From the IMG/VR virus record IMGVR_UViG_3300013285_000086, positions 1-22,424 of that record: a stretch of DNA of 22,424 nt. One strand, written 5' to 3'. The notes below the pieces were generated by a model, which did no database searches, had not been told where the DNA came from, and worked only from the letters and a program-made list of their open reading frames with translations. Both the position numbers and the translations under genes were made by a program. Within the stretch, counting starts at the first letter, position 1. Every line of letters starts with the position of its first letter. Positions 3,677 through 22,424 of the stretch are shown one piece after another. The stretch is from a virus.

Positions 3677-3687
3677 CTGAGAACACA

Positions 3688-5588: not shown

Positions 5589-5618
5589 ACTGCGCACATA
5601 TTTTTATCTAATAAATAC
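5585..5618 (+). promoter_or_regulatory. Putative late promoter upstream of the gp6-like gene
   Basis: ATAAACTGCGCACAT at 5585-5599 overlaps the gp25 stop. Twelve bases later comes TAAATAC at 5612-5618, within AATAAATA at 5610-5617, a full match to the NATAAATA late box of T4-like phages. The upstream element and its spacing duplicate those before gp48 at 71-104. Transcription would start near 5623 and give a leader of about a dozen bases with AGGA at 5626-5629, six bases before the gp6 ATG at 5636. This makes gp6 and the giant gene a separate late unit. Confidence 0.7.
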
Positions 5619-5635
5619 ACTTATTAGGACACATT

Positions 5636-8600
5636 ATGAGCTCAACGGATAGACAAAATAACCTGTTAGTTTCAGAAGACTGGCAGAAAATTTATCAATC
5701 ATTCAAGAACGCCGACTTCCAAAGCTACGACTTTGAAAATCTACGCCGTACCATGATTGACTATATCCGTACAAATTTTCCTGAAGATTTCAACGATTAC
5801 ATTGAGTCTAGCGAATACCTTGCCCTGATCGACCTTATTGCGTTCGTGGGTCAAAGCATAGCTTTCCGTGTGGATTTGAACGCTCGTGAAAACTTTTTAG
5901 AACTGGCAGAACGCCGAGACAGCATATTGCGTTTAAGCCGAATGATTGGGTACAACGCCAGCAGAAATGTACCAGCCAAGGGCTTGTTAAAATTTAGTAC
6001 TATACAAACTACAGAAAATGTGTTGGACAGTAATGGCATCAATTTGGCTGGACAAGTTATTACTTGGAATGATCCAAGTAATTCCAGTTGGTACGATCAA
6101 TTTATTAAAATACTGAATGCATCTCTGCCAACTACACAACAATTTGGCAATCCGGTTGACCAAGCCAGTATCTATAATATTTCTACAAGTCAGTATAGAT
6201 TCAATGCTAGAAACACGGATATTCCTGTTTATACTTTTACCAAATCGGTCGCTGGCCGAAGCATGAATTTTGAAATTACCAGTACAACATTTGCTAATAA
6301 AAATGTAATATACGAAGAAGCCCCTAAGGTAGGAAATCATCTGGCATTTATTTACAAAGACGATGGCTACGGCGCCGGCAGTACCAACACCGGTTTCTTT
6401 TTAAATTTTACACAAGGCAATCTAAACCAAGGCGCATTTAGTGTTACTCAACCCAGTAGCAATCAAACTATTGATATTAATACACAAAATATCAATAATA
6501 GTGATGTGTGGCTATACAGTTTAAATCAAAGTACCGGGTTGGAAGATACACTATGGACACAAGTTCCTGCGCTGACTGGCAACAATATTATCTATAACAG
6601 TTTAAGTAAAAATATCAAAACTATCTATAGTGTAATTACTCGTGCAGGAGATGCAATTAGTCTAGGATTTTCTGACGGCACATTTGGAGATTTACCGTTA
6701 GGTAATTTTAGAAGTTACTATAGAATCAGCAACGGTTTATCATATTCAATAAGCCCTAGCGATATCTTAAATGTGGCAATCAGTGTTCCTTACACAAGTA
6801 GCAAAGGGCAAGCTGAAACATTAACAGTGACATTGAGTTTGGTAAACAATGTGTCAAATGCCAGCGGCACTGAGACCAATGCAAATATCAAAGCAAATGC
6901 TCCGCAGACATATTACACACAAAATCGTATGATAACCGGCGAAGATTATAGTATTAGTCCGTTGAGTATTACACAAAAAGTTGCTAAAGTAAAAAGTATC
7001 AACAGAACAAGTAGCGGCATTAGTCGTTATTTTGATCTGACAGATCCAACCGGAAAATATAGTAGCACTAATTTATTTGCAGATGATGGCGTTGTCTATC
7101 AAGATTTATATACCTCTAGCATAAATTTTTCTTACATGACTAAGACTGATGTAGAAGGTGTTGTCTATAATACAATTTTTCCTATATTGAACGATCCCAA
7201 CCTACGTAACTTCTATTATGCAAACTATATCAATTATATTTCTGAAAGTTTAGCAATCCAGTGGGTTAACGTAACCACTGACAGCAACAGCAGTACTGGT
7301 TATGTTGGGGACTCCAGCTTAATTCCTAAGAAATTGTCCAGTTATACCAGTACCGACTTAAAATATTTTACTAGCGGTGCTTTGGTTAAATTTCTTGCAC
7401 CAGCAGGTCGATATTTTGACACCACCCATCAAAATGCATTAATGACGCTCCCAGAGTCTGGCATATTACCTTTTGGCGGTGTTGATTACTTGTGGGCGCA
7501 AGTTGCTACTGTTGTCGGTGACGGCCTTGGCGACGGAGAAAACAATTCGGGAAAGACAACTATTAATGGCGGACTATTCGGAGTAGTAACATTAAACGAA
7601 ACAATTCCAACCAGAGCAATTATCAGCCAAATAATCCCGCAGTTTAGTTCAACAATTGGATCAACTGTGATCACTACTATGATTGATTTGATTTTTAATA
7701 ATAAACCTTTTGGTTTACGTTATGATGCTGGAACACAAAGTTGGCAAATTATTTTTGAAACCAATTTAAACACCACTAGCAGTTTTAGTTTGGGTTACCA
7801 AGGCGATACAACCAACACACAACAAGATTCCAGCTGGTTATTGTTGTTTACTACCAATAACGAATATTATACTGTGAACGCACGACTATTGCGCTACATA
7901 TTTGAAAGCGACAAGGCTGTATCGTTTTACTTTGATACATCATTAAAAGTTTTTGATACTGTTTCTAGTACAACTATATTAGACAGTTTAAAGATATTAA
8001 GTATTAATCCTCGTCCTGATAACACTATACCATTCACCACCGATCTCAACTGGCAAATTATCAGTGCATACACTGGGCAGGACGGCTATGTTGACCCTAG
8101 TAAAATTGTTGTTGCATTCGCAGACACCTTGAACAATGGAATTGTCGATAATCCTCAATTGTTTTTAGATATTGTAGCCCCTAATACAAGTCCGTTGACC
8201 AAATATATTGTACAACAAAAATATTTAATTAGTCAGGGCCAGGAAGATTATCGATATGTAAGTAATGCAACCGGACTTGTAAAAATTCTCACAACACAGG
8301 GATCGGTTGGTAGTTTGAATCAATACACCGACGGACAATATTTTTATTTTGTAGACAAAGCAGTTGTTAAAAAATATGATGCTGCCACCAGTACGCTGAA
8401 TGCCAGTTTAGATTATAAAGTTTATGTTGGAAGAGATAAATTAAAATTTCAGTATACACACAACGCAGATTACAATAGCCGCATTGATCCAGGTGCTAGT
8501 AATATTATTGATGTGTATGTATTAACAGTTGATTATGATACACAATTTAGACAGTGGTTGTCAGGCGCAAATGTTAAAGAACCGATGCCTCCAAGCAGTA

Positions 8601-9127
8601 GCGAACTTAACAGTTTATTAGCACCTAATTTAAATTTAATCAAATCTATTTCAGATGAAATTGTTTATCATCCAGTGAGTTATTTGTTATTGTTTGGCCC
8701 ACAAGCTCCTGATAATTTACAAGCTACATTTAATGTTGTAAAAAATCCTACAAGCACAGCCAGCGATAATGATATTATTGCAAGAATCATTGCGGCATTT
8801 AATAGATTCTTCACACTAGATAACTGGAATTTTGGCGATACATTTTATTTTACTGAACTGTCAACCTATGTAATGAATCAACTCACACCGGATATTACTA
8901 ACTTTGTTATTGTCCCTAAACAAGGCAATTTATATTTTGGTGCATTATTTGAAATAAAATGCCCAAGCAATCAGATATTGATTAGTTGTACTACTGGAGC
9001 AGATATTAAAGTAGTTGCAGGATTAACTAGCGACAACTCAAGAACAGTTACAGGCAGCGGATTGTCATCTGTAGTAACAAGTCAAAACATAACTAGTGCA
9101 ACCTTTGGAGTAACTAATGGCAAATAA
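5636..9127 (+). CDS. 6: gp6-like baseplate wedge protein, enlarged
   Basis: A 1,163-residue protein, nearly twice T4 gp6 (660), the wedge subunit that forms the continuous ring around the hub and drives baseplate opening. The N-terminus is diagnostic: YDFENLRRTMIDYIRTNFPE (31-50), YIESSEYLALIDLIAFVGQS (55-74), then AFRVDLNARENFLELAERR and ILRLSRMIGYNASRNVPAKG up to about residue 116. Around 426-475, QNRMITGEDY and VKSINRTSSGISRYFD fit the baseplate J-like core. The C-terminal region (about 1045-1128) has ARIIAAFNRFFTLDNWNFGD, YFTELSTYVMNQLTPDI and FEIKCPSNQILIS, again as in gp6. The middle (roughly 500-1040) is beta-rich extra sequence that I cannot assign. The start has AGGA six bases upstream and its own promoter. 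Its 3' end overlaps the next gene by 11 bases. Confidence 0.88.
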   Translation: MSSTDRQNNLLVSEDWQKIYQSFKNADFQSYDFENLRRTMIDYIRTNFPEDFNDYIESSEYLALIDLIAFVGQSIAFRVDLNARENFLELAERRDSILRLSRMIGYNASRNVPAKGLLKFSTIQTTENVLDSNGINLAGQVITWNDPSNSSWYDQFIKILNASLPTTQQFGNPVDQASIYNISTSQYRFNARNTDIPVYTFTKSVAGRSMNFEITSTTFANKNVIYEEAPKVGNHLAFIYKDDGYGAGSTNTGFFLNFTQGNLNQGAFSVTQPSSNQTIDINTQNINNSDVWLYSLNQSTGLEDTLWTQVPALTGNNIIYNSLSKNIKTIYSVITRAGDAISLGFSDGTFGDLPLGNFRSYYRISNGLSYSISPSDILNVAISVPYTSSKGQAETLTVTLSLVNNVSNASGTETNANIKANAPQTYYTQNRMITGEDYSISPLSITQKVAKVKSINRTSSGISRYFDLTDPTGKYSSTNLFADDGVVYQDLYTSSINFSYMTKTDVEGVVYNTIFPILNDPNLRNFYYANYINYISESLAIQWVNVTTDSNSSTGYVGDSSLIPKKLSSYTSTDLKYFTSGALVKFLAPAGRYFDTTHQNALMTLPESGILPFGGVDYLWAQVATVVGDGLGDGENNSGKTTINGGLFGVVTLNETIPTRAIISQIIPQFSSTIGSTVITTMIDLIFNNKPFGLRYDAGTQSWQIIFETNLNTTSSFSLGYQGDTTNTQQDSSWLLLFTTNNEYYTVNARLLRYIFESDKAVSFYFDTSLKVFDTVSSTTILDSLKILSINPRPDNTIPFTTDLNWQIISAYTGQDGYVDPSKIVVAFADTLNNGIVDNPQLFLDIVAPNTSPLTKYIVQQKYLISQGQEDYRYVSNATGLVKILTTQGSVGSLNQYTDGQYFYFVDKAVVKKYDAATSTLNASLDYKVYVGRDKLKFQYTHNADYNSRIDPGASNIIDVYVLTVDYDTQFRQWLSGANVKEPMPPSSSELNSLLAPNLNLIKSISDEIVYHPVSYLLLFGPQAPDNLQATFNVVKNPTSTASDNDIIARIIAAFNRFFTLDNWNFGDTFYFTELSTYVMNQLTPDITNFVIVPKQGNLYFGALFEIKCPSNQILISCTTGADIKVVAGLTSDNSRTVTGSGLSSVVTSQNITSATFGVTNGK

Positions 9128-12100
9128 AAACAATCCATTAGGAAATACGAATCTTACTGTAAACTTTCTTCCTAAATTTTACCAGTCTGATTCTAATAAG
9201 AAATTTTTACAAGCTACACTAGATCAGTTATACCAACCTGGTAGTATTAAAAAAATCAACGGGTTTGTAGGACGCGAAAATGCCAAATCTTCTACGGGTA
9301 CAGATATCTATCTCGAAGCCAGTGATCGAGTACGACAAGATTATCAGTTAGAGCCGGCCATAACCATCACCGATAATATTGGTAACCAAACATTTTTTAA
9401 AGATTATATTGATTACATTAATCAAATTAATACATTTGGCGGCAACACATCTAACCATGCTAGATTAAATAAACAAGAATTTTATAGCTGGGATCCGCAC
9501 ATCAATTGGGATAAGTTTGTTAATTTTCAAAATTATTACTGGGTCCCGTACGGTCCAGACACTATTAGATTGCAGGGCCAGCAAAAAGCAATCACCAGTA
9601 CTTATACTGTTTCAATCGAAAGAGAATTAAGCAATAACGAATATTTGTTTACTCCCAACGGATTTACCCGTAATCCCGTATTGAAACTGTATCGCGGACA
9701 AACATACACATTTGAAATCAACAGTCCTGGGAATCCGTTCAGTATCAAAACTGCACGTACACCGGGGCAAGCTGACAGATATCTAGTTGACACTATTGAT
9801 AATCACGGAGTTGAAGTTGGAACTATAACATTTAGTGTTCCGCTGGATGCTCCTACGTTATTGTTTTATCAAAGCGAATCAGATCTTCAGTTGGGCGGAG
9901 CAATTCAAGTGTTGAGTATTACCAAAGACACTTATATTGATGTTGAAAATGAGTTACTGGGTAAAAAACACTATCGGTTGTCTAACGGCACACAACTTAG
10001 TAACGGTATGAAGTTGGCATTTTTAGGAAATGTAACTCCTGTTGAATATGCTTCTGGAGAATTCTATGTTGAAGGGGTTGGTGTTGCCATCAAGCTAATT
10101 TCTACAAGTAGATTAGAAATTATTAATCCCTATACTAAAGAAAAAACAATACCTTTTGATAGCGATAAATTTGATACTCAACCGTTCAGCGATGCCACCG
10201 GCTATGCTGGCCAATCGGATTACATAGTAATTGATAGGGGCAGTAACGATGCTAACAATTGGAGTCGATACAATCGATGGTTTCATAAAGATGTCATTGC
10301 TGCAAGTTCTTTATATAATGGTAATCCAGTTAATTTAGATCAAACTGCAAGAGCTATTAGACCCATTATAGAATTTAATTCAGATTTAAAACTTGCAAAT
10401 TTTGGTACCACAGCCATTGCTGATGTTGATGTTCTTGACGATTATACCACAGATGCATTCAGCACGATTGAGGGATCTTTGGCATATAGCGTTGACGGGG
10501 TTTCTTTAGCAGAAGGTCAACGAGTTATTTTTACTGCTGATCCAGACACGCTAGTTAAAAATAAAGTTTTTAAAGTTACATTTGTTAACGTGTTGCATCT
10601 CAACAGTGGAAGCAGACAAATTCACTTAGAAGAAATTTCATCGCCGTCATTGCATCAAGTAGCACTGGTCAAATTTGGAACTAAACATCAAGGCAATGCA
10701 TATTGGTACAACGGTACCACATGGGTCCGCGGACAATTGAAAACCAAAGTGAATCAAGCACCGTTGTTTGATGTAGTAGACGAAAACGGTATAAGTTATG
10801 CTGATACCAGCGTGTACAACGGATCAACATTTGTAGGAACAACTTTGTTTTCTTATAAAATTGGAGCAGGCACTAACGACGGTGCATTGGGATTTCCGTT
10901 AAGTTACAGAAATATTAGTAATATCGGCGATATTGTTTTTAACTTTACACTGGCCACTGATAAGTTTCAATATAAACAAGGAACTGCCCTTCTAACACAA
11001 GCAATTAATGTGGGATACCTTGTGGGGCAAACGTTTGCTGGAAAACCAACTTATAAAAATGGCTGGCAGCTTTGCACAGCTTCAACCACACAAGCCGCTA
11101 TAAGAATTTATAAAAATTCTAGAATTACAAATTATTTCAACATAGATATTTTTGATGACATTACGAATCTGTCTGATCTAGTAGTTAGAATTTATGTAAA
11201 TGGACATAGACTAGATCCACTGGCATGGACATTGGTCGATACACCGTCTTATAAGCAAGTTCAATTGAGAAAAGATATTGCATTAAGCGATGTATTAACT
11301 ATTAGAGCGTTTGCATCCCAACCAATTAACACTGTTGGTTATTATGAAATTCCTGTGAATTTACAAAATAATCCGTTAAACAATGTTATAGGAGATTTTA
11401 CACTGGGTGAAGTATCAGACCATGTGAATTCAATAGTTGATAATTTAGATACTACATTTGTAGGAGTATTTCCAGGCAGCGGCAACTTGCGAGATTTGGG
11501 CAACATAACACAATACGGTACGAAATTTGTACAGCACAGTGGTCCAATGAGCCTTGCAATCTATCATATTACTAGCGAATCTAATAATGTTATTCGTAGC
11601 ATCCAGCAGGCTCGGGATGACTATAATAATTTTAAAAGAAATTTTATTAAAATTGCTAGTAGTTTGGGAGTAGACGGCGATACTGTTACAATAACAAATC
11701 TAGTGTTACAAAAAATCAATAAAGACAAGCCAAAAACAAGCCCTTATTATTTTAGTGACATGGTGCCGTATGGCGCATGTATAGTTACAGATCTCAATGT
11801 TGTTGATTATAGAATTAAACAATATCCATTAACCAAACCGTTTGTCTTAACAGCATTGAGTAATGATGCTGTGGGTGTTTATTTAAATGGTGTGCAATTA
11901 ATTTACGAACAAGATTATATATTTCTTGATACTGGATTTGTTGTGATCGATAGCTTGGTCAAGATGAACACAGGCGATGTGATTACCACACGAGAATACG
12001 ACAGTACCGACGGATGTTTTGTACCAGCAACTCCGACCAAGATGGGTATATGGCCAAAGTTTGCTCCAAAAATTTATACAGATACTTCGCTATTAACACC

Positions 12101-15100
12101 GCGTGTTATGATACAAGGGCATGATGGCAGTCAGATTTTGGCCTACGGTGATTACCGAGATAATTTAATTTTAGAATTAGAAAAGAGAATTTTTAATAAT
12201 ATCAAAGTTCAATACGACACTGAAATTTTTGATGTTACTGATATAGTTCCAGGATACAATAGAAAAACAGATTACAGTCTATCTGAATTCAATGAAGTTT
12301 TAGCTCCTAATTTTTACAAATGGACTGCATTGGCTGGTAGAGACTTTACAAAACCATTGGGTACATTTTCTGTTGATAACACCTTTACATATAATTATTC
12401 CGATACTGTTGGACCTGACGGCAAGCCAGTTCCAGGTTATTGGAGAGGAATTTATCGTTGGTTGCTGGATACTGATCGACCTAATTTATGCCCATGGGAA
12501 ATGTTAGGTTTTAGTATCGAGCCCAAATGGTGGGCCACAGTGTATGGCGTTGGCCCATATACCGGCGATAATTTCCCAATGTGGCAAGATATCAGTGATG
12601 GTATGGTTCGTGAACCTGGAGTTCCGGCAGTTAAATTAAGCAAGTATGTCAAGCCATTTTTAATGAATCATATTCCAGTTGACAGCAACGGAATATTATT
12701 AAGCCCTAGTGATTCTGGATTAGTCTCAGGGCCAACTAATTTCACAATGGATGGTGGGTTTGTATTTGGAGATGTCAATCCAGTTGAATCTGCCTGGCGC
12801 CGTAGTAGTCATTATCCATTCAGTGTGCTCATATCTTCTATACTTTTAAATCCTGCAAAAACTTTTGGTCTGTTGTTAGATAGAGCCAACATTAAACGTA
12901 ATCTTGCGGGACAGCTGATCTATACAAACACTAACCTACGTGTGCGACCAACTGATATTGTATTACCCAGCATTTATTCAAGTACAACTCGTGTACAAAC
13001 CGCGGGATTGGTTAATTATATTGTAGATCATATTCTAAACTTTGTGTTTAGTAATAATGTCAGAAGTTACAATCAGTATGCTACTGACCTAGATACTTTA
13101 ACAAGTCAAATTAGCTATCGAGTTGGTGCATTTACCAGCAAGGAACAATTTAACTTGTTGTTAGATAGTAAAACACCTTTGAGCACGGGTGGTGTTTTTA
13201 TACCTCAAGAAAATTATCAGGTTAATATTAATACTTCTAGCCCTATCAAGAAAATAACTTATAGCGGAGTTATTATCACCAAATTACATTCGGGATACGA
13301 AATCAAGGGTTACAGTACTACACAGCCGTATTTTAAATATTATCCTTACTTGCAAACAGGTCAACGAATCAATGTTGGCGGTATTAGTGAAAGCTATACA
13401 ACTTGGACACCTGGCCAACAGTATGCGGCCAATTCAGTTGTATTATATAAAGGACAATATTATCGAATATTATCTTCTACAACAGCAGCCGCAATATTCA
13501 ACCCGGCAGCATTTAGCTATCTAGGAGAATTGCCAGTCGTGGGTGGCGCTAACGCTGTTTTAAGAAAATTATGGGATAGAAATAAACCAGTAGTAGTTCC
13601 CTACGGCACAGAATTTACAAAAATTCAAGATGTGGTTGATTTTTTACAAGGCTACGGCGAATGGTTGACTGATCAAGGATTTGTTTTTGATGATTTTAAT
13701 AGCAATTTAAATGCTGTTTCTAACTGGGAAAATAGTGCTAGAGAATTTTTATTCTGGACTACACAAAACTGGAGTTCTGGTGCAGACAATTGGGCAGACT
13801 GGACTCCTGCTGAGCCAGTTACATACGGAACTATTGTAAAATACAATGGAGATTATTATAGTGCATTGTATAACTTAGCTGCCACAGATGTATTTGACCC
13901 AATCAAATATACCAAATTAGAAGGATTAAGCAACATTGGTAGCAGTGTTATAAGCCTAAGCCCAAGTGCAAATAGACTAACATTTAATACTACACTATCT
14001 GTAGTAGACAATATTAGCAATCAATTTTACGAATATGAAATATTTAAAGTTGATGGTACTCCTCTGACTCCGCTGTTTTTAGACAGCTATAGAGAAAATA
14101 ATGTTGTAAGTTACAGTCCTCGAACTACTGACGGGATATATGGTGCTAGTTTTTATCTAATACAAAATGAACATGTTATTACAATAGATAACACTACAAT
14201 TTTCAACGATGTAGTTTATAATCCACAAAGCGGTTATAGACAAGAGCGTATCAAAGTATCAGGCCACGTCAGTATTGACTGGTACGGTGGTCTTGATGTT
14301 CCTGGTTTTATATTTGATCAAGCCAACATCAAACAATGGCAAATATGGCAGGATTATGCTCTGGGAGATATTGTAAACAATCAAGGGTTTTATTATAGTG
14401 CATTGTCGGCATTGCCTGGAACGGAAAAATTCAATCCAACCAATTGGGTACAATTAGAAAAGAAACCAACACCTAAATTAATCCCCAACTGGACTTATAA
14501 AGCAGGCCAGTTCACTGACTTTTATAGTCTCGACGACGATAATTTTGATACTGCCCAACAAAATATGGCACATCATTTAATTGGATACCAAAAACGTCAA
14601 TATCTTAATAATATTATTCAGGATAATGTAAGCGAATTTAAATTCTTTCAAGGCATGATTCGTGAAAAAGGTACACAAAACAGCCTTAACAAATTATTTG
14701 ATGTATTAAGTTCTGACAGTAAAGAAAGTCTCAAATTTTATGAAGAATGGGCAGTGCGGGCTGGACAGTATGGCGCTAGTAGAGCTTTTGAAAATATTGA
14801 ATTTTTATTAGACGAAGGTACTTTTAGATTAAATCCTCAAGGATTCCAACTGGTAACTACACCTGATGTTAATCTCAACGGTACTTTTATCATACAACAA
14901 AAATCTACTGATGTATATTTAAAACCGTTAGGTTACAACAGTAAACCTTGGCCGCTATTAACAAATTACAAACCTTTCTTACGTAGTGCTGGGTACGTTA
15001 ATTCAACAGAGGTGTCCATAAGTCTTGGATACCTGCCAGAAATTGCTGCCTTAGACATTGCCACAATTAATGAAGGAGCCTATATATGGGTAGCCTTTGA

Positions 15101-18100
15101 AGGACCTAGTTGGAATCTATATAGATATACAGATATTCACATGTCTGTGACAGATGTTACTTATAACGACTCTGCAAAGACGTTAACAATTACAGCAGAA
15201 AATCTTACTGGATTTGTATCAGGGTCGTGGATTGGACTTGCACAAGTAGAAAAATTAAAAGGTTTTTATCAAATAATCAGTGTTGAATTAAACTCATTTA
15301 CGGTTTCGGCAACCATTACTGGATTTCCGAGCCCATTCAAACAAAGCAATGAACTGGTAGTGTATGCATTGATTAGTCAACGAACCAGTAGTATCGACAA
15401 ATTAGATTCTGTACTTACAACAAAACTTTTACCGGGCGAACTAATATGGACAGACGACAGCGGTAACGGCAAATGGGCCAGCTGGATGTTTAATCCTATC
15501 TACACAATATCGGACGTAAACAACTCAGCTCCGCAAAATCAGTTACGATTTGGCAATACCATTGCTGTGAACAACAAAGGCACACTGGCCGCAGTTGGTT
15601 CTAGTTTTGGAGAGTTAATAACATACGACAAAGTAGGAACAGTCACTCCATGGGTCCAGCGACAAATTGTAGCTTCTCCATTTATTGCAACAAACATTGT
15701 TATATTAACTACCGGTAACACTGTACTTAACAGTACCACAGTGACTATGTCCAGTGCAAACGCTTCTATGATAGGTGGATTTATTGATGGACCTGGTGTT
15801 CCTTATGATACACTGGTAACGGCAGTAAATAACGGGGTCAGTATCACAATTAGTCAAAAAGCAAATGCAACAACCACAGCTTCAACTTTTACAATTGTAA
15901 CAAATCCAAACCCTGCCACAGTAATAGCAACCTCGATAGCGTTTTCAGCAGACGGCACATGGATGGCCAGTGGAAGTCCTTTGGCCGGATATGCTGTAAC
16001 AGATTTCTTGGGAGCGTATAATACTGCTAACATATACGGACCGGGACTAATTGTTTCAACTGGTTCTGGTACCAGTACAACATATTGGCAAGCATTAAGT
16101 AATGTTCCAGCAAACAAACCACCAGCAAGTAACTTATCTTACTGGAGCCCAATATATTATTTGCCAGTTGATTCATACGGAACTTGGTCAATCAATGATT
16201 CGTATCTTGAAAACACCTTAGTTGTTTACAAATCAAAAGTATATAAGAATGTTGTTCCTGCAACAACATCGGGCTTGCCTTCGATCTATGGTCAAACAAT
16301 AGTTAATGTGTTGAGTACAAATGGCGCAAGTTATATTTTAACTGCCGATACAACAGCAGGCCTTGCTCCAAATTATCAAATTATTTTTACAGGTAATGTG
16401 TTTGGTGGAATATTAACCGGCGGACTATACTATGTTTCTACAGTACTTACAAGTACTACATTTACAATTACAGCATTGCAATATAGCACGTCAGTGGTAC
16501 CAGTTACAACTGCATACGGATCAATGCAAGCTACTCAACAACCTCAACCATCTCCAGGCGGTAATAACCAGTGGGCAGAACAAAGTGTTCAAGCTGGACC
16601 AGTTGGTCAGGGTGTGATTAGTTTGTATAAAAAAGATCCTAATAATATTTACGGTTTAGTTGACACCATCATTAGCCCGTTCCCAGCCGCCAATGAAAAT
16701 TTTGGTAGCAAGATTGTATTTGGAAATAATACAGTATATGTATCAGCACCGGGGTATGGTGGTGTCGGTCGAGTTTATAAATTAAAATATGCAACAACAA
16801 TTCAAGCTCAAAGTGCATATAATCCAGTTGGTAGTACCAACGCTACACTAGTGGTTACTAGTACAGCCGGTGTCCGTGCTGGCATGTATGTAATTAATCC
16901 AGCATTTACTAGCGAACAAACAGTAGCACAAGTGTTGGATTCTCGTACAGTAATACTAAGTGGCAGTCCAAATAGTATTCCAAGCGGTATTATAAAATTT
17001 GCAATTGTGGGATGGGGATATGATTTTACAGAAATATACACTGGCACACAAACCGGCGCCGCATTTGGAAATTCCATTAGTTTGAGCCAAGACAATCTCA
17101 CATTGGCAATTGGTGCGGATACCGGTACAGTAAATGGTATACTTAACATTTATAAAAATGCAGGTTCTGGATTTAATCCGGGTGCGCCTTTACAAACTAT
17201 ATCGGGAACTACTAAAAACTTTGGTATCAGTACTAGTATTTCCAACGACGGCACATATATCGCAGTGGCAGATGACAGTGCCACAGTTGGCGGAGTAATA
17301 CAACGAGGAGGTGTCACTGTTTATAAATTTACTGATAGCACATACACATCTTATCAAACATTAATACCCCATCAACCAGAAATTAATGGACATTTTGGTA
17401 ATAAGTTATCTTTTATGAACGATTACGAAACTTTAGTAGTTTATAGTCAATATGGCGATACGATTATCACAACTACATTTGACGATAATACAACTACGTT
17501 TGATAAAAATAGCACAGACTTTGCATTCACACAAACCAATAGCGGACGTGTTGATATTTACGATCTATATGCTACCAAGTGGGTATTCAGTGAAAGTTTA
17601 ACCAAAACAAATCCGGTAAAGACAGCAGGCAATTTTATTAGAAATGATGTTTATCAAATTTTAACTCTTGGTACCACAGATTTTACAGCAATTGGCGCAA
17701 GTACCAATGCAATCGGAGTGACCTTTACGGCAACAGGTGACGGGTACGGTACGGGAACTGCGGCCTTGGTCACTAATGAAACTTCAATCGCTGACGGATA
17801 TGGAGTAGGATTTGCCGTGGGCTCTAATCATATCTTAATTGGTGCGCCAGAATCAATTGATCAAGGATTTAATTCAGGTAAGGTTTATGATTACGGTAAA
17901 CCAAATAACACATATACCTGGACTATCGATCATTCTGAAGTTGACAAACCCGATGTTACAAAAATTAAACAAGCATTTTTGTACAACAGAGTAACTGGAG
18001 AATTGATCACACATTTAGACGTTATAGATATTGCTCAAGGAAAAATTCCAGGGCCTGCTGACGAAGAAATAATGTATAAGTCGTTTTACGACCCAGCAAA

Positions 18101-21100
18101 TTATAGTACAGTTAATGGAGTTACAACGTCAGAGGCAGGCGCAGTATGGACTACCAAACAAGTTGGCCAGTTATGGTGGGATGTGCGCACTGCAAAAGTT
18201 ATCGACGCTTATGAAAACGACACAATATACAGAAATACCAATTGGAATACATTGGCAACAGGAGCCAGTATTGATATTTACGAGTGGGTTGGAACAAAAT
18301 TAAAACCAAGTGTATGGGATACACAAGCAGATACGCCAGCTGGATTAACCAATAATATTAGTGGTAAGAGTTTGTATGGTGATGCAAAATACAGTATCAA
18401 GACAACTTACAATACAGTAACATTATCTACTGTTACAACTTATTATTTCTGGGTCAAAAACAGAAAATTTACCCCTAATGTTCCAGGACGACATATGGCT
18501 GCACAAGATGTATCTAGCTTAATTGCAAATCCTCGAGGACAGGGGTACACTTATCTTGCATTGACCGGACTTGATAGTTTTAGTTTAGTTAATGCTAAAT
18601 CTTATTTAAAATCCAATGAAGTAGTGTTGAGTGTTGAATATTGGACAGGTGATAAGACAGATCAAAATGTACATAGCCACTGGAATATTATTAGCGACGA
18701 CCCAACAACCTATATTCCTTTACCGATTGAACAAAAATGGATTGAAAGTCTCTGCGGCAGAGATACAGCAGGTCGTGCAGTTCCTGATTTAAGTTTGCCG
18801 GTTAAATTACGTTATGGTATCGAAAACCGACCACGTCAGGGCATGTTTGTTAATAGATTTGAGGCATTAAAGCAATTTGTTGAAACAGCAAATCAGATAT
18901 TGCTAGCAAATCAAATTGTTGAAGAAGCCAGTATTACTGCATTGCAAGGATATGATCCACAACCAACTGTGATATCTGGATTGTACGATATCACTTTCCC
19001 TACTGATGCTGAACTAGTGTATGCTAGTACGGGTAGTTTTACTCGAGCAGTTATCATGCCAGTAGTTGCCGACGGCAGAATTACCGGTATAACAATAGTT
19101 AATTCTGGTAAAGGATATCTAATAGCACCTTATCTTACAATAGTGGGAGTAGGTGTTGGTGCAGTTGTTAGATCTATCATTAATAATAAAGGCCAGATTA
19201 CAGGAGCCACTGTAGTGTCTAGGGGAGAAGGCTATAGTGATACTACCACTACTATCAATGTACGAGATTACTGTGCGCTGGTACAGAGCGATAGTCAAGC
19301 AAACAACAATTGGAGCATTTATAGTTATGATCCAACACAACGCTCTTGGGCAAGGATTCTAACTCAGAGTTACGATGTGAGAGAGTTTTGGAATTATGCC
19401 GATTGGTATGGCTCTTATGTTGACACCAAAGGTAAGGTAATATTTACAGCTTCACAATTTACTGTTGCAAAATTTTCAGTAGCTACGTTGACAGAATTAA
19501 ACAATATTCGACCCGTCATCGGTGATACTGTCAAAATTAGAACTACAAATGCTGGTGGCTGGGAATTGCTTTACAAATATTCCAATTCTACCAGTGTAGA
19601 TTGGACACAGTCATATGCTACTGTGGGTATTCAGAACGGTACTATACAACTGAGTAGCAGTTTATACGATCTATCTAATACAGATTTGGGATTTGACAAT
19701 ACAATTTTTGACAGCAACAGCTATGATAAAGTTGCAGGCACTGAGTTAAGAATTATTTTAGATACACTTAAAAATAAGATTTTTACACAACATGCTAGCC
19801 TCAATGGTGCATATTCAGATTTGTTCTTTGCCAGTGTGCGATATGCACTGAGTGAACAACCGTATGTGGATTGGATTTTTAAAACCAGTTTTGTCAAGGC
19901 ACAACATAACGTAGGACAGTTAGATCAGCCAGTTACATATCAGGCTGACAATCTAGCCAATTTTGAAGATTATGTTAATGAAGTAAAACCTTATAAAACC
20001 AAAGTACGAGAATATGTCAGTAACTATGATAGTTTAGATCCAGCACAGCTACCAATTACTGACTTTGATCTGCAACCAATTTATCAAAATAATGCGTTAG
20101 CAGTTATTGACACATTTGTAGACAATGGAAAATTAGCAACAAATAATTCTATTGTACAGCAATATCCATGGAAATTCTGGTTGGACAACGGTGGCTTTGA
20201 AGTGGTCGAACTAAAACTAACCAGCAGTGGTTCCAAATACATAACCGAGCCGCAGGTGATCATTACCAGCGATAGCGGTAGTGGTGCAACAGCTAGGGCG
20301 TTTATTTCTAATGAAAAAGTCAATAGAATTGTACTGCTGACTCCAGGTAGTGGATATTTGTCAGCACCAAAAGTAGAAATTCGCGGCGGCACACTAATAG
20401 ATGGAACCAGCGCAACTGCAAGTGCTATTATTGGCAACAGCGTTGTCCGTGGAACACTAGTTGGTATTAAATTTGATAGAATTAATTCTACGTATTTTAT
20501 TACACAGCAATCTAAAACTGAAACATTTACTGGTACCGGCAGCAGACAACAATTTTTGTTGGTATGGGGTCCTGATATTAAAATAGGACAAAGCACAGTA
20601 TACATTGATAACATTCTAGCATTACGAGACAGTTATATAATGTATGTTGTCAAATCAACAAATTTGGGATACACTACATATTCTGGAATTATACAATTTG
20701 ATACAGCTCCTAAAAAAGGTAGTGCAATCCGTGTAACTTACATGATTGATCCTTCGTTGATGCAAGCAACTGATAGAATACAATATTTGTATAATTCTGC
20801 CACGGGCGAATTAGGAAAAGATTTATCACAACTAATGACAGGCGTTGATTATGGTGGCGTAATTGTTGATGGAACCGGATTTCAGATATCCAACGGTTGG
20901 GATAGTTTACCTTATTATTCAGATCAGTGGGATTCGTTTGACGAAACATTTAATGATTATACTGTGGTTGTTGGAGCTGATACTCACTCATTTACTTTAC
21001 CGTACACACCAGCGGCTGGTGTACAGTTAACATTGTACAGAAAACAAAGTAATACAGACACATATCAATCTGATGGTGTAACTAAAATTTATTTGTATTC

Positions 21101-22424
21101 AACCGCTGATGTTGCCCCTTATGTTAATGTTGCAAACAATCTTGCAACTACTGGCATTTCTGCTACATTCACAAGCATCAATCGTATAGGTAGTTTGTTT
21201 GGAACTATATTAGTTGTTTCAAGCACCAATGGAATTGTTGCAGGCATGGGGGTAGTTGGTTCAGGTTTTGCCAACGGACAAACGGTCAGCTCTGTCACAA
21301 ACAGCACAACATTGGTCTTGAGTATTCCAGCAGACACCCAGCCCAGCGGAACAATACAGTTTATTCGCAATGTTGTGGGTAGTGCAACGTTGAATGTAAC
21401 AAGTACAGTTGCATTAAAGCCGGGAGATGTTGTTACTTTATTAAATTTAAATACATTTAGTTATAACACCACAGTGTTGTCTATTCCAAATAGTACAACA
21501 GTTACTTTAAGCAACATCATTTATCAAACTATTCCTCCGGGAACTTATATAACATTCACACGTAAGCTGGTGCAACCAACGGACGTTAATGTTAAAACTG
21601 ACGGTAGTATTATATTAACCAATTTGGCTAACTCTAAAATAGTTGCTGGAACATTGATTAATATTATTGGACAAATTAATCCGGTACGCCTTGACGATCC
21701 AAATTACAATATCAAACCTTACCTTCAACAATTAATAAATGCATTTGCATACGACACAGCATTTACTACAGGTACTATGCAAAGTATTTTTGCAGGACTT
21801 GATATTTTAACACAAGTTAAAACTTACGGTTACGATCCCATGACAACTGCCAACAGTGTCACAGCATTGGCAAACAAGATACTAGCTATTCCAGGAGTGG
21901 CCGGAGCTTCTTTAGCTGCCGTGGATACCATCAACACTAACCTTGCTACTATTGTAGAAATCATTGATCAGGCCAACAGTGGAATTATTCCAACTCCAGA
22001 ATTCCCACCATATGCTGGTCTGAATACTGGCTATGTAAATGCAGGAATACTGTTGTTTGATAATATAACATTCATACAATTTGAAATGGTTGCTTACATA
22101 ACAGCAAATTATCCCAGCTTGACATATGACCAGAATGTTTTCCAGCAGGACATGCAAAATATAGTATGGAGTTTGATTTATGATTTGACATACGGCGGTA
22201 ACAGTCAGTCTGTGCAACGTGGCCTAACATATTGGTCATCTAACAACACTTTAAGAACCGATCTTGGTACAGCATGGCCCGGAATTTATACTCGTCTAGC
22301 CAGTATTGCACAAAGTATTATTATCAAATCAGCAGTAACTAGATTACAAACAATTGTTGCACAATACAAGCCACTCAGTATTTTAACTGGCGGCTCAATT
22401 GCAAGTACCAGCATTTCAAATAAT
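9117..22424 (+). CDS. 7: Giant modular gp7-like baseplate wedge protein, 3' end outside window
   Basis: The frame opens at ATG 9117 and I read it without a stop to 22424: 4,436 codons, still open. T4 gp7 is 1,032 residues. The start lies within the gp6 3' end with GGAG at 9107-9110, six bases upstream, implying coupling. gp7-type features are the N-terminus (NLTVNFLPKFYQSDSNKKFL, TLDQLYQPG), YSWDPHINW/FQNYYWVPYGP (122-147), KVNQAPLFDVVDENG (544-558), GHDGS and DYRDNLILELEKRI (about 1001-1025), GMIREKGTQNSLNKL and FYEEWAVRAGQYGA (1846-1887), RYGIENRPRQGMFVNRFEAL (about 3232-3251) and DYVNEVKPYKTKVREYVSNY. Between these lie CBM-like modules (1430-1783), a seven-bladed FG-GAP propeller (2145-2930) and repeated beta modules (3322-4150). 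There is no signal peptide or membrane span. Very few cysteines. It probably forms wedge plus peripheral receptor- or glycan-binding surface. The gp7 assignment is from recalled motifs and position. Confidence 0.8.
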   Translation, partial: MANKNNPLGNTNLTVNFLPKFYQSDSNKKFLQATLDQLYQPGSIKKINGFVGRENAKSSTGTDIYLEASDRVRQDYQLEPAITITDNIGNQTFFKDYIDYINQINTFGGNTSNHARLNKQEFYSWDPHINWDKFVNFQNYYWVPYGPDTIRLQGQQKAITSTYTVSIERELSNNEYLFTPNGFTRNPVLKLYRGQTYTFEINSPGNPFSIKTARTPGQADRYLVDTIDNHGVEVGTITFSVPLDAPTLLFYQSESDLQLGGAIQVLSITKDTYIDVENELLGKKHYRLSNGTQLSNGMKLAFLGNVTPVEYASGEFYVEGVGVAIKLISTSRLEIINPYTKEKTIPFDSDKFDTQPFSDATGYAGQSDYIVIDRGSNDANNWSRYNRWFHKDVIAASSLYNGNPVNLDQTARAIRPIIEFNSDLKLANFGTTAIADVDVLDDYTTDAFSTIEGSLAYSVDGVSLAEGQRVIFTADPDTLVKNKVFKVTFVNVLHLNSGSRQIHLEEISSPSLHQVALVKFGTKHQGNAYWYNGTTWVRGQLKTKVNQAPLFDVVDENGISYADTSVYNGSTFVGTTLFSYKIGAGTNDGALGFPLSYRNISNIGDIVFNFTLATDKFQYKQGTALLTQAINVGYLVGQTFAGKPTYKNGWQLCTASTTQAAIRIYKNSRITNYFNIDIFDDITNLSDLVVRIYVNGHRLDPLAWTLVDTPSYKQVQLRKDIALSDVLTIRAFASQPINTVGYYEIPVNLQNNPLNNVIGDFTLGEVSDHVNSIVDNLDTTFVGVFPGSGNLRDLGNITQYGTKFVQHSGPMSLAIYHITSESNNVIRSIQQARDDYNNFKRNFIKIASSLGVDGDTVTITNLVLQKINKDKPKTSPYYFSDMVPYGACIVTDLNVVDYRIKQYPLTKPFVLTALSNDAVGVYLNGVQLIYEQDYIFLDTGFVVIDSLVKMNTGDVITTREYDSTDGCFVPATPTKMGIWPKFAPKIYTDTSLLTPRVMIQGHDGSQILAYGDYRDNLILELEKRIFNNIKVQYDTEIFDVTDIVPGYNRKTDYSLSEFNEVLAPNFYKWTALAGRDFTKPLGTFSVDNTFTYNYSDTVGPDGKPVPGYWRGIYRWLLDTDRPNLCPWEMLGFSIEPKWWATVYGVGPYTGDNFPMWQDISDGMVREPGVPAVKLSKYVKPFLMNHIPVDSNGILLSPSDSGLVSGPTNFTMDGGFVFGDVNPVESAWRRSSHYPFSVLISSILLNPAKTFGLLLDRANIKRNLAGQLIYTNTNLRVRPTDIVLPSIYSSTTRVQTAGLVNYIVDHILNFVFSNNVRSYNQYATDLDTLTSQISYRVGAFTSKEQFNLLLDSKTPLSTGGVFIPQENYQVNINTSSPIKKITYSGVIITKLHSGYEIKGYSTTQPYFKYYPYLQTGQRINVGGISESYTTWTPGQQYAANSVVLYKGQYYRILSSTTAAAIFNPAAFSYLGELPVVGGANAVLRKLWDRNKPVVVPYGTEFTKIQDVVDFLQGYGEWLTDQGFVFDDFNSNLNAVSNWENSAREFLFWTTQNWSSGADNWADWTPAEPVTYGTIVKYNGDYYSALYNLAATDVFDPIKYTKLEGLSNIGSSVISLSPSANRLTFNTTLSVVDNISNQFYEYEIFKVDGTPLTPLFLDSYRENNVVSYSPRTTDGIYGASFYLIQNEHVITIDNTTIFNDVVYNPQSGYRQERIKVSGHVSIDWYGGLDVPGFIFDQANIKQWQIWQDYALGDIVNNQGFYYSALSALPGTEKFNPTNWVQLEKKPTPKLIPNWTYKAGQFTDFYSLDDDNFDTAQQNMAHHLIGYQKRQYLNNIIQDNVSEFKFFQGMIREKGTQNSLNKLFDVLSSDSKESLKFYEEWAVRAGQYGASRAFENIEFLLDEGTFRLNPQGFQLVTTPDVNLNGTFIIQQKSTDVYLKPLGYNSKPWPLLTNYKPFLRSAGYVNSTEVSISLGYLPEIAALDIATINEGAYIWVAFEGPSWNLYRYTDIHMSVTDVTYNDSAKTLTITAENLTGFVSGSWIGLAQVEKLKGFYQIISVELNSFTVSATITGFPSPFKQSNELVVYALISQRTSSIDKLDSVLTTKLLPGELIWTDDSGNGKWASWMFNPIYTISDVNNSAPQNQLRFGNTIAVNNKGTLAAVGSSFGELITYDKVGTVTPWVQRQIVASPFIATNIVILTTGNTVLNSTTVTMSSANASMIGGFIDGPGVPYDTLVTAVNNGVSITISQKANATTTASTFTIVTNPNPATVIATSIAFSADGTWMASGSPLAGYAVTDFLGAYNTANIYGPGLIVSTGSGTSTTYWQALSNVPANKPPASNLSYWSPIYYLPVDSYGTWSINDSYLENTLVVYKSKVYKNVVPATTSGLPSIYGQTIVNVLSTNGASYILTADTTAGLAPNYQIIFTGNVFGGILTGGLYYVSTVLTSTTFTITALQYSTSVVPVTTAYGSMQATQQPQPSPGGNNQWAEQSVQAGPVGQGVISLYKKDPNNIYGLVDTIISPFPAANENFGSKIVFGNNTVYVSAPGYGGVGRVYKLKYATTIQAQSAYNPVGSTNATLVVTSTAGVRAGMYVINPAFTSEQTVAQVLDSRTVILSGSPNSIPSGIIKFAIVGWGYDFTEIYTGTQTGAAFGNSISLSQDNLTLAIGADTGTVNGILNIYKNAGSGFNPGAPLQTISGTTKNFGISTSISNDGTYIAVADDSATVGGVIQRGGVTVYKFTDSTYTSYQTLIPHQPEINGHFGNKLSFMNDYETLVVYSQYGDTIITTTFDDNTTTFDKNSTDFAFTQTNSGRVDIYDLYATKWVFSESLTKTNPVKTAGNFIRNDVYQILTLGTTDFTAIGASTNAIGVTFTATGDGYGTGTAALVTNETSIADGYGVGFAVGSNHILIGAPESIDQGFNSGKVYDYGKPNNTYTWTIDHSEVDKPDVTKIKQAFLYNRVTGELITHLDVIDIAQGKIPGPADEEIMYKSFYDPANYSTVNGVTTSEAGAVWTTKQVGQLWWDVRTAKVIDAYENDTIYRNTNWNTLATGASIDIYEWVGTKLKPSVWDTQADTPAGLTNNISGKSLYGDAKYSIKTTYNTVTLSTVTTYYFWVKNRKFTPNVPGRHMAAQDVSSLIANPRGQGYTYLALTGLDSFSLVNAKSYLKSNEVVLSVEYWTGDKTDQNVHSHWNIISDDPTTYIPLPIEQKWIESLCGRDTAGRAVPDLSLPVKLRYGIENRPRQGMFVNRFEALKQFVETANQILLANQIVEEASITALQGYDPQPTVISGLYDITFPTDAELVYASTGSFTRAVIMPVVADGRITGITIVNSGKGYLIAPYLTIVGVGVGAVVRSIINNKGQITGATVVSRGEGYSDTTTTINVRDYCALVQSDSQANNNWSIYSYDPTQRSWARILTQSYDVREFWNYADWYGSYVDTKGKVIFTASQFTVAKFSVATLTELNNIRPVIGDTVKIRTTNAGGWELLYKYSNSTSVDWTQSYATVGIQNGTIQLSSSLYDLSNTDLGFDNTIFDSNSYDKVAGTELRIILDTLKNKIFTQHASLNGAYSDLFFASVRYALSEQPYVDWIFKTSFVKAQHNVGQLDQPVTYQADNLANFEDYVNEVKPYKTKVREYVSNYDSLDPAQLPITDFDLQPIYQNNALAVIDTFVDNGKLATNNSIVQQYPWKFWLDNGGFEVVELKLTSSGSKYITEPQVIITSDSGSGATARAFISNEKVNRIVLLTPGSGYLSAPKVEIRGGTLIDGTSATASAIIGNSVVRGTLVGIKFDRINSTYFITQQSKTETFTGTGSRQQFLLVWGPDIKIGQSTVYIDNILALRDSYIMYVVKSTNLGYTTYSGIIQFDTAPKKGSAIRVTYMIDPSLMQATDRIQYLYNSATGELGKDLSQLMTGVDYGGVIVDGTGFQISNGWDSLPYYSDQWDSFDETFNDYTVVVGADTHSFTLPYTPAAGVQLTLYRKQSNTDTYQSDGVTKIYLYSTADVAPYVNVANNLATTGISATFTSINRIGSLFGTILVVSSTNGIVAGMGVVGSGFANGQTVSSVTNSTTLVLSIPADTQPSGTIQFIRNVVGSATLNVTSTVALKPGDVVTLLNLNTFSYNTTVLSIPNSTTVTLSNIIYQTIPPGTYITFTRKLVQPTDVNVKTDGSIILTNLANSKIVAGTLINIIGQINPVRLDDPNYNIKPYLQQLINAFAYDTAFTTGTMQSIFAGLDILTQVKTYGYDPMTTANSVTALANKILAIPGVAGASLAAVDTINTNLATIVEIIDQANSGIIPTPEFPPYAGLNTGYVNAGILLFDNITFIQFEMVAYITANYPSLTYDQNVFQQDMQNIVWSLIYDLTYGGNSQSVQRGLTYWSSNNTLRTDLGTAWPGIYTRLASIAQSIIIKSAVTRLQTIVAQYKPLSILTGGSIASTSISNN
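11178..11314 (+). repeat. Beta module 'VYVNG', copy 1 (giant protein residues 688-732)
   Basis: VVRIYVNGHRLDP, a tyrosine-containing hairpin, then LRKDIALSDVLTIRAF. The pattern is a strand with NG and a leucine, then a strand ending in a glycine- or serine-x-hydrophobic stretch. Related segments occur at 11865-12001 and 20520-20743. Small beta modules of this form are common in tail fibre and baseplate proteins. The similarity is by eye only. Confidence 0.45.
11865..12001 (+). repeat. Beta module 'VYLNG', copy 2 (giant protein residues 917-961)
   Basis: AVGVYLNGVQLIYEQDYIFL followed by VKMNTGDVITTREY. It matches the NG-x-x-L-x(4-6)-DY and GD-V/I-I-T pattern of the other copies. It directly precedes the GHDGS block conserved in gp7-like proteins. 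Confidence 0.5.
13404..13535 (+). repeat. CBM5/12-like module, copy 1 (residues 1430-1473)
   Basis: TWTPGQQYAANSVVLYKGQYYRI followed by FNPAAFSYLGE in compressed form: W-x-P-x3-Y-x3-S-V-V-x-Y-x-G-x-Y-Y, then F-N/D-P and an aromatic, then L-G/E. This is the aromatic-rich layout of CBM5/12-type chitin- or glycan-binding domains, where the W and Y residues form the binding face. Two clear further copies follow. The assignment is by pattern only and binding is not shown. Confidence 0.55.
13800..13925 (+). repeat. CBM5/12-like module, copy 2 (residues 1562-1603)
   Basis: WTPAEPVTYGTIVKYNGDYY then FDPIKYTKLEG: same order and spacing of W, Y, V-Y, G-YY and F-x-P as the copy at 13404-13535. The two are divergent at DNA level, so the duplication is old or they were acquired separately. 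Confidence 0.6.
14346..14465 (+). repeat. CBM5/12-like module, copy 3 (residues 1744-1783)
   Basis: WQDYALGDIVNNQGFYYSAL then FNPTNWVQLEK. It keeps the W, the G-DIV, the G-x-YY and the closing FNP-x2-W-x2-LE of the family. It stands just before the conserved GMIREKGTQ block, separating the gp7-like scaffold segments. Confidence 0.6.
15693..15899 (+). repeat. TST/G-GM beta module, copy 1 (residues 2193-2261)
   Basis: A divergent copy between propeller blades 1 and 2: LNSTTVTMSSANASMIGG, GVPYDTLVTAVNNGVSITIS and a closing ASTFTIV. The form is strand with STT/SS, a G-containing turn, G-x-P-x2-T-x-V-x-x-V, then a T-hydrophobic-I-S strand and a final T-hydrophobic strand. It matches copies at 16842, 21201 and 21375. 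Confidence 0.5.
16185..16274 (+). repeat. Weak CBM-like module in the propeller (residues 2357-2386)
   Basis: WSINDSYLENTLVVYKSKVY then PATTSG: keeps the W, Y, V-V-Y and VY positions of the three clearer copies but lacks the G-x-YY and the FNP ending. It lies between blades 2 and 3. It may be a degenerate copy or an unrelated hairpin. Confidence 0.35.
16305..16484 (+). repeat. G-G-YYV beta module (residues 2397-2455)
   Basis: SYILTADTTAGLAPNYQIIF, then TGNVFGGILTGGLYYVSTVL, then TSTTFTITALQ. The order of a T-x-GL-x3 strand, F-GGI-x2-G-x2-YYV and a T-T-FTIT strand is one I recall from repeat modules in tail proteins of aquatic phages. It sits between blades 2 and 3. Function unknown; presumably a small surface domain. 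Confidence 0.45.
16842..17009 (+). repeat. TST/G-GM beta module, copy 2 (residues 2576-2631)
   Basis: ATLVVTSTAGVRAGMYVI, then EQTVAQVLDSRTVILSG and PSGIIKFAIV. It is close in form to the copy at 21201 (TILVVSSTNGIVAGM, GQTVSSVTNSTTLVLS, PSGTIQF), 4.3 kb downstream in the same gene. This copy lies between propeller blades 3 and 4. Confidence 0.7.
17649..17768 (+). repeat. TDFTAIGA module (residues 2845-2884)
   Basis: VYQILTLGTTDFTAIGAST followed by NAIGVTFTATGDGYGTGTA. This short motif (Y-x-I-x2-x-G-T-TDFTAIGA-x2-N-x-x-G-x-x-FTATG-x-G-x-GTGTA) is one I recognise from tail and fibre proteins of aquatic phages, often in several copies. Here a single copy sits between blades 6 and 7. Function unknown. 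Confidence 0.6.
19080..19262 (+). repeat. Paired GxGY repeats, copies 1 and 2 (residues 3322-3382)
   Basis: ITGITIVNSGKGYLIAPYLT, a strand ending GAVVRSIIN, then ITGATVVSRGEGYSDTTTTI. The unit is hydrophobic strand, S/R-G-x-GY, a P- or T-rich turn and a strand, as in GSGY repeats common in phage tail proteins. A second pair is at 20196-20438. Confidence 0.65.
20196..20438 (+). repeat. Paired GxGY repeats, copies 3 and 4 (residues 3694-3774)
   Basis: EVVELKLTSSGSKYITEPQV with GSGATARAFIS, then VNRIVLLTPGSGYLSAPKVE with GTSATASAIIGN. Same unit as the pair at 19080-19262, with the typical S-ATA-x-A closing strand better preserved. The two pairs flank a gp7-like conserved block (residues about 3576-3656). 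Confidence 0.7.
20520..20743 (+). repeat. Beta module 'VYIDN', copy 3 (residues 3802-3875)
   Basis: TVYIDNILALRDSYIMYVVK then GIIQFDTAPKKGSAIRVTYM. The aP-x-x-G-x-x-I-x-V-x-Y ending is typical of small tail fibre beta modules. It precedes a block with GVDYGGV, GWDSLPYYSDQWDSFDE and LPYTPAAGVQLTLYR that I recall as conserved in gp7-like proteins of aquatic phages. Confidence 0.5.
21201..21368 (+). repeat. TST/G-GM beta module, copy 3 (residues 4029-4084)
   Basis: TILVVSSTNGIVAGMGVVGS, GQTVSSVTNSTTLVLSIP and PSGTIQFIRN. It is the best-formed copy of this unit and directly abuts copy 4. The G-M turn, the G-x-TV-x2-V strand and the PSGTI closing strand match the copy at 16842. Confidence 0.7.
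21375..21566 (+). repeat. TST/G-GM beta module, copy 4 (residues 4087-4150)
   Basis: SATLNVTSTVALKPGDVV, a longer hairpin, TTVLSIPNSTTVTLSNI and PPGTYITFTRK. Tandem to copy 3 with a two- to three-residue linker. The GM turn is replaced by GD and the closing PSG by PPG, so the copies have clearly diverged. Confidence 0.6.
22041..22244 (+). other. Helical YGGN module near the window edge (residues 4309-4376)
   Basis: AGILLFDNITFIQFEMVAYI, then YDQNVFQQDMQNIVWSLIYD, then LTYGGNSQSVQRGLTYW. This segment, helical in contrast to its beta-rich surroundings, matches a module I recall from large structural proteins of aquatic T4-like phages (x-FIQ-E-x2-A-YI ... D-x2-x-IV-x2-L-x-YDL-x-YGGN). A partial echo (LINAFAYDTAFTTGTMQSIF) occurs earlier at about 21733-21792. 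It suggests the protein continues with more repeats beyond 22424. Confidence 0.55.

Follow-up and report, generated by a model that had tools for sequence, protein, structure and literature searches.

Results

A giant gene follows gp6 in a baseplate gene cluster

The window, that is, the whole stretch of 22,424 nucleotides analysed here, constitutes an entire IMG/VR record, and the giant gene that fills its right-hand part is therefore cut by the end of the contig. The genes of the baseplate region in the window, with the matches that identify them, are as follows:

1129..1431, + strand: gp53-type baseplate wedge protein P0003, 100 aa (phrog_7145, E 2.3e-26; PF11246)
3688..5154, + strand: gp5-type baseplate hub P0005 with an OB domain, 488 aa (phrog_13211, hub/lysozyme, E 2.7e-50; PF04717)
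5151..5588, + strand: gp25-type baseplate wedge protein P0006, 145 aa (PF04965, E 1.6e-12; phrog_261)
5636..9127, + strand: gp6-type baseplate wedge subunit P0007, 1,163 aa (phrog_10646, E 1.3e-292)
9117..22424, + strand: giant baseplate-region protein gene (phrog_10938, 1018 bits; whole protein about 5,364 aa, judged by the related contig L008)

Two genes for virion structural proteins (phrog_12050 and phrog_11190) also lie upstream on the same strand, and the end of the gp6-type gene overlaps the start of the giant gene by 11 bases. A sequence-only reading of this DNA had placed the giant gene in a baseplate context and in the position of gp7 behind gp6, which the gp53, gp25, gp6 and hub/lysozyme profile matches bear out. 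The gp5-type hub (3688-5154) contains no lysozyme domain detectable by Pfam at E 0.1 and in this respect differs from the hub of Pectobacterium phage CBB, which the excerpted text of PMC5259590 describes with such a domain.

The genes beyond the contig end can be seen in L008, where the gene after the giant one encodes a T4_gp9_10_N domain (27.6 bits) and is followed by genes for a sedolisin-like peptidase, a phrog_11259 protein and a collar-domain protein. The peptidase (L008:20161-21795; 544 aa, Pro-kuma_activ PF09286 and Peptidase_S8) lies two genes past the giant gene, within the tail cluster. Since the gene order in T4 is gp6, gp7, gp8, gp9, gp10, the giant gene, with gp6 upstream of it in the window and a gp9/10-type gene downstream of it in L008, occupies the gp7 slot.

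The giant frame is a single coding sequence under purifying selection

The frame starts with an ATG at 9117 and runs free of stops through 22424, giving 4,436 codons that are open at the 3' end, as the sequence-only reading had it (at least 4,436 codons, still open at the edge). The other five frames of the window contain 217-463 stops each, and from base composition alone an open run of 4,436 codons has a probability of about 10^-138. In the 61,083-base contig L008 the giant gene is complete (2297..18391; 5,364 aa, 587 kDa): its ATG and the upstream stop overlap by 11 bases, just as they do in the window, and the next gene begins at 18393, one base past the giant stop. The window aligns with L008 without a gap over 4,436 of 4,436 codons (93% amino acid and 87% nucleotide identity), and dN/dS between the two was 0.027-0.106 in all eleven 400-codon intervals of aa 1-4400. 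Against the more distant L011 (67% identical over 4,410 codons) dN/dS was 0.09-0.26, again in 11/11 intervals; against L027, dS was saturated in 4/11. The gap-free alignment with L008 together with the low dN/dS indicates that the frame behaves throughout as a single coding sequence; by comparison with L008, the window gene probably lacks about 928 codons of a protein of about 5,364 aa.

Long frames are the rule among related loci. When the best 80 of 220 confirmed stretches were retained, the longest frame was bounded by stops at both ends in 50. These comprised 8 exact duplicates and 42 distinct IMG/VR frames, of which 36 complete relatives (3,883-5,693 aa) were kept for alignment and 6 were excluded: L021, L074, L077 and L080, which length and termini, not identity, mark as near-copies, and L060 and L064, whose frames seem to be interrupted. 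The L060 frame ends at 2,694 aa, whereas that of L038, which has the same N-terminus, reaches 5,041 aa; the L064 frame has no start region. Either case could be a sequencing error or a real break. The sequence-only reading had named an assembly error joining separate genes as what would overturn it; apart from the cut contig end, only the two interrupted frames among the 50 speak for such a fusion, and the gap-free L008 alignment with dN/dS of at most 0.106, the stop-bounded long frames of the other relatives and the 3,340-4,555 aa relatives in isolate genomes (below) refute it for practical purposes.

The giant protein belongs to a known jumbo-phage family

The giant protein matches phrog_10938, a family of virion structural proteins, at E 0 (1018 bits) in 5 stretches; none of these was found in aa 2131-2940 when that part was searched apart. 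By tblastn, relatives were found in six isolates: Pectobacterium phage CBB (gp236, CBB_236; 3,340 aa), PA5oct (gp355; 3,857 aa), Atu_ph07 (gp180; 4,449 aa), Phosso (XYS97451; 4,555 aa), SCTP-2 (gp140; 3,807 aa) and Vibrio phage 2.275.O (gp424; 3,771 aa). In five of the six (CBB, PA5oct, Atu_ph07, Phosso and Vibrio 2.275.O) the giant gene stands directly after gp6. The exception is SCTP-2, where gp6 lies at 231230-234952 of the record, away from the giant gene; the gene that precedes the giant one there (L006, 4609-13899) encodes a 3,096-aa protein that is not gp6. The six isolate proteins and that of the window have conserved blocks along the chain in common; the mean identity to the six does not exceed 51% in any 50-aa block.

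Relatives of the giant protein are reported from virions, both in published work and in record notes. In the excerpt of PMC5259590, CBB_236 is among the proteins detected by mass spectrometry in purified virions, with an entry of 21 and 7.72 (peptides and coverage), and the record of PA5oct gp355 is annotated ESI-MS/MS. The excerpt of PMC7247149 lists phAPEC6 gp245 at 381.88 kDa with 17 unique peptides and 7.6% coverage, right after the baseplate wedge protein gp244; its number, position and size beside gp244, rather than its sequence, suggest that gp245 is an orthologue. A close relative is also already in UniProt: A0A6J5L0K2, a 'YHYH domain-containing protein' of an uncultured Caudovirales phage, is 64% identical over 858 columns to the modelled N-terminal part of the giant protein, the piece compared being the 1,165 aa in BFVD only. 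As similar giant proteins are known from isolated phages, the window gene joins a known family and does not represent a new kind: it is a further member of a jumbo-phage family, with inserts specific to its lineage.

Modules interrupt the conserved blocks

Across 43 sequences, conserved blocks alternate with variable stretches. The core tree, which was midpoint-rooted, was built from the blocks at aa 1-150, 380-850, 960-1420, 1500-1550, 1620-1730, 1790-1900, 2960-3290 and 3550-3650. The features along the giant gene are:

9117..9566, + strand: N-terminal block, strongly conserved, aa 1-150 (aligned in the six isolates too)
9570..9941, + strand: cupredoxin-like beta-sandwich, aa ~152-275 (VIA-align, Foldseek)
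13401..13493, + strand: CBM5/12 copy a, aa 1429-1459 (PF02839, 26.9 bits against a cut-off of 26.2)
13770..13922, + strand: CBM5/12-like copy b, aa ~1552-1602 (alignment)
14325..14456, + strand: CBM5/12-like copy c, aa ~1737-1780 (by eye, script motif and alignment only)
14484..14816, + strand: conserved core block, aa 1790-1900, with the motif F[FY]QGMIxEKGTxNxLNKLF (conservation)
15444..17996, + strand: FG-GAP/WD40-type beta-propeller stretch, aa 2110-2960, 851 aa (PF14312)
19014..19286, + strand: GxGY module a, glycine-rich repeats, aa 3300-3390 (common to cyanophage proteins)
20184..20456, + strand: GxGY module b, glycine-rich repeats, aa 3690-3780 (48% identity with the giant protein of cyanophage S-CAM22 across 58 aa)
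21084..22424, + strand: hypervariable stretch, aa 3990-4436 (length 14-722 aa across the 43 sequences)

The cupredoxin-like module is suggested by a model of the N-terminal 860 aa (mean pLDDT 72.3, pTM 0.68; aa 33-119 under pLDDT 50), for which the 50 PDB matches listed show cupredoxin-type chains such as laccases, rusticyanin and nitrite reductases. The VIA-align rows fall mainly on aa 151-274, the match to 2dv6_A having a Z of 8.7 and an rmsd of 2.4 over 102 residues, near the level that the tool calls common; the best Foldseek E is 2.2e-5. The module has its full length (118-125 aa) in 36/36 IMG/VR relatives, as opposed to 1-73 aa, by alignment length, in 6/6 isolates. Copper cupredoxins hold Cys, His and Met in the ligand loop; the loop reads YQSE or YVSE in the seven printed sequences that have the module, and copper binding by it is thus unlikely.

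The two further CBM5/12-like copies are also reduced or missing in the isolates: copy b is 4-8 aa long in the six isolates (and 4 aa in L087) and copy c 0-3 aa, so that, relative to the isolates, the window lineage adds the cupredoxin-like module and copies b and c. PF02839 matches 29 of the 37 members of alignment A1, and the assignment of copies b and c rests on those relatives, the window's own aa 1480-2130 giving no match to PF02839 at E 0.01. When PDB sequences were searched with the core alignment, the domains found were those of chitinases, with E 0.3-0.4.

For the propeller stretch, the excised aa 2110-2960 match PF14312 (FG-GAP_2) at E 3.5e-6 with 27.6 bits against a cut-off of 23, no single stretch passing by itself; on the whole protein the score is 15.4 bits, below the cut-off. 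In the propeller alignment A3, which comprises the window, 31 of the 36 IMG/VR members and two of the six isolates, 21 of 34 sequences match PF14312 at E 0.01 (best 3.2e-17), and a search of PDB sequences with this alignment gave E values of 0.01-0.08 for WD40 proteins and an integrin. A3 omits four isolates, L040, L079 and L087 (417-684 aa in this stretch) and L058 and L061, in which the stretch is 48 aa long although both stand among members with longer ones in the core tree; in CBB it is 90 aa.

The sequence-only reading had held that the extra modules were inserted into the scaffold and not appended to it. Their position and variation among relatives agree with this, since the modules interrupt conserved blocks; the scaffold itself is the family's own and not demonstrably that of gp7.

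Sequence comparison with T4 gp7

The earlier reading had further claimed that the giant protein shares N-terminal motifs with T4 gp7 and carries gp7-type blocks throughout its length. Neither claim was confirmed by BLAST, HMM or profile comparison, and the conserved blocks are those of the phrog_10938 family. By hhalign, the 43-sequence alignment reached a probability of at most 0.2% against six T4-type gp7 sequences, and comparisons limited to four regions, or made through a bridge of gp7 plus cyanophage sequences, reached at most 0.9%. A T4-type gp7 profile searched over the 43 members with hmmsearch had a best E of 0.02, and BLASTP of the 43 queries against gp7 gave one match at E 0.001 (L047, 71 aa), with the listed matches at scattered places; direct sequence homology to T4 gp7 thus found no significant support in any of these searches. 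In the hhalign controls, gp6 scored at most 0.3% against gp7, the annotated downstream wedge gene of S-CAM22 and S-RIM2 0.1%, and the giant proteins of these cyanophages 74%, which indicates that the test is able to see a distant gp7.

The T4 gp7 profile phrog_964 likewise had no match at E 0.1 in 18/18 records that bear the family, namely those of the six isolates, of which one genome is partial, and twelve possibly fragmentary IMG/VR contigs; the same profile finds T4 and also matched one of 14 control genomes, Bacteroides ihuae. In the literature excerpts (PMC6102473, PMC5259590, PMC3622015, PMC6892783, PMC3037559 and PMC7247149) the gene after gp6 in CBB-type phages is not named gp7.

Structure comparison was less informative. 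The AlphaFold model of the core (aa 1480-2130, 651 aa) has a mean pLDDT of 63.6 and a pTM of 0.39, with values of ~23-40 in its helical part, and is too weak for a judgement on the gp7 fold. It has no match in the PDB at E 0.001, and chains of phage or contractile-injection baseplates or fibres (9rkv, 8fqc and 8kec, E 0.007-0.07) and 7b5h (E 0.05) that were listed for it were not usable. By VIA-align, its highest-scoring matches, with Z 8.9 for 9jlf_E and ~7-8 for E1 enzymes and endosialidases, span 70-85 residues around aa 2003-2088. The matches listed include no T4 gp7 chain, which, given the quality of the models, carries no weight against a gp7 fold; the whole chain found nothing among the PDB sequences at E 1.

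Giant genes after gp6 are also found in aquatic T4-like phages, with which the sequence-only reading had proposed a comparison: S-RIM2 has a 6,378-aa gene in this place, with the record note 'similar to gp7', and S-CAM22 one of 6,273 aa. That reading had also supposed that the protein would exceed any other in a typical T4-like virion; its large size is real, and these two proteins of the same slot are larger still. The S-CAM22 giant matches the T4 gp7 profile phrog_964 at E 1.2e-6, and in a four-sequence set the cyanophage giants match a T4-type gp7 profile at E ~1e-7 and 3e-7. With the window protein they have in common the slot, the giant size and GxGY modules. The similarity found to the window protein is at the level of modules only, and the gp7 profile matches the cyanophage giants at one motif but not the window family. 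Regions of the window family compared with the cyanophage giants by hhalign reached at most 2.3%; rows of the whole alignment against the cyanophage sets, with probabilities of up to 96%, were alignments of 1-2 columns, which we disregarded, or GxGY modules. In S-CAM22, the gene annotated 'baseplate wedge initiator gp7' (L099:26543-30670; 1,375 aa) has no match to the T4-type gp7 profile, and it is the giant after gp6 (L099:6469-25290) that matches, at gp7 positions 731-758; the gp7 label may therefore sit on the wrong gene.

By eye, the motif of the core block at aa ~1840-1870 is reminiscent of the KG motif of gp7, a likeness that was not significant in the tests. The giant could accordingly be a true, very divergent homologue of T4 gp7 that has kept this motif and is insertion in the rest. 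The position after gp6 fits such descent, the motif resembles T4 gp7 DFYSTKGIEASYKFLFKVL and cyanophage DFYSTKGTSFSIAYLFKLL, and it is at that motif that the same-slot cyanophage giants match the T4 gp7 profile. Weighing against it, the family reaches at most 0.9% against gp7 or the gp7-cyanophage bridge, and the sole alignment of the bridge to the core block pairs the block with a different part of gp7. We regard such divergence as a serious possibility, somewhat short of an even chance; it overlaps with the explanation that we prefer (below), which allows homology. T4 gp7 (1,032 aa) is four to five times shorter than the giant protein, and the two have the slot after gp6 in common and presumably the same role. 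As a guess from position the label gp7 is fair, but the sequence lends it no support, and a gp7 slot filled by a protein without gp7 similarity fits functional replacement and extreme divergence alike.

Proposed role of the giant protein

The explanation that we prefer, and consider reasonably likely, is that the phage is a T4-superfamily relative of CBB, PA5oct and Atu_ph07, that the gene encodes a single virion protein of ~5,360 aa and ~590 kDa located in the wedge region of its baseplate, and that this protein probably does gp7-like work. In the place of gp7 it would join the inner wedge of gp6, gp25 and gp53 to the outer baseplate and fibre proteins. The conserved blocks would form the wedge scaffold, a role suggested by the slot, by their conservation and by there being no detectable gp7 elsewhere; the modules lodged between these blocks (cupredoxin-like, CBM5/12-like, propeller and GxGY) would lie exposed on the outer side, where they would bind glycans of a surface or other components of the virion, and would be exchanged quickly, the module families by themselves pointing to this putative binding role. 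With one copy per wedge and an assumed six-fold symmetry, six copies of 587 kDa would add up to ~3.5 MDa. Several findings count against this explanation: there is no significant sequence link to T4 gp7, the core model is too weak for a test of such a link, the SCTP-2 giant is not preceded by gp6, the 7.7% peptide coverage leaves room for a cut chain, the window's own CBM-like copies b and c fall short at E 0.01, and PF14312 scores below its cut-off on the whole protein.

A different account would make the giant an adhesin or tail-fibre-like protein that merely adjoins the wedge genes, the work of gp7 being done by another protein. Its modules are in keeping with this, since carbohydrate-binding modules are present by sequence and modules of the cupredoxin-like and GxGY types are found again in tail-fibre, connector and other proteins of cyanophages. 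Yet the conserved blocks are spread over most of the chain and extend to the distant isolates, the same-slot cyanophage giants bear the gp7 motif, and none of the 18 records yields another gp7 to phrog_964, although a gp7 too divergent for that profile could be among their genes. We therefore think a bystander adhesin unlikely.

Less probable still is a polyprotein, in which the one frame would be cut into several mature structural proteins. The modular build and the nearby sedolisin-like peptidase gene of L008 would suit cutting, and the low peptide coverage of the relatives is compatible with it: in the excerpt of PMC5259590, the 7.7% coverage of CBB_236 leaves an uncut chain undemonstrated. 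Against this, phAPEC6 gp245 is listed at its 381.88 kDa with no mention of cutting in the excerpt of PMC7247149.

It is the baseplate that determines the moment at which a contractile phage commits itself to infection. Should the single wedge protein that we favour be correct, the giant would be a candidate for the gp7 that the T4 gp7 profile misses in the six isolate records. We further suggest, tentatively, that in this mostly metagenomic T4-superfamily lineage the wedge scaffold may itself have become an adhesion organ, with a ~590 kDa chain per wedge that carries CBM, beta-propeller and cupredoxin-like inserts, and that host-surface recognition might evolve by swaps of modules in the scaffold and not only in the fibre genes. 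If the conserved blocks are the scaffold, the uptake of surface-binding modules between them would have brought it to a size of half a megadalton. Such a scaffold would also be viable without them, as the propeller stretch measures no more than 48 aa in L058 and L061.
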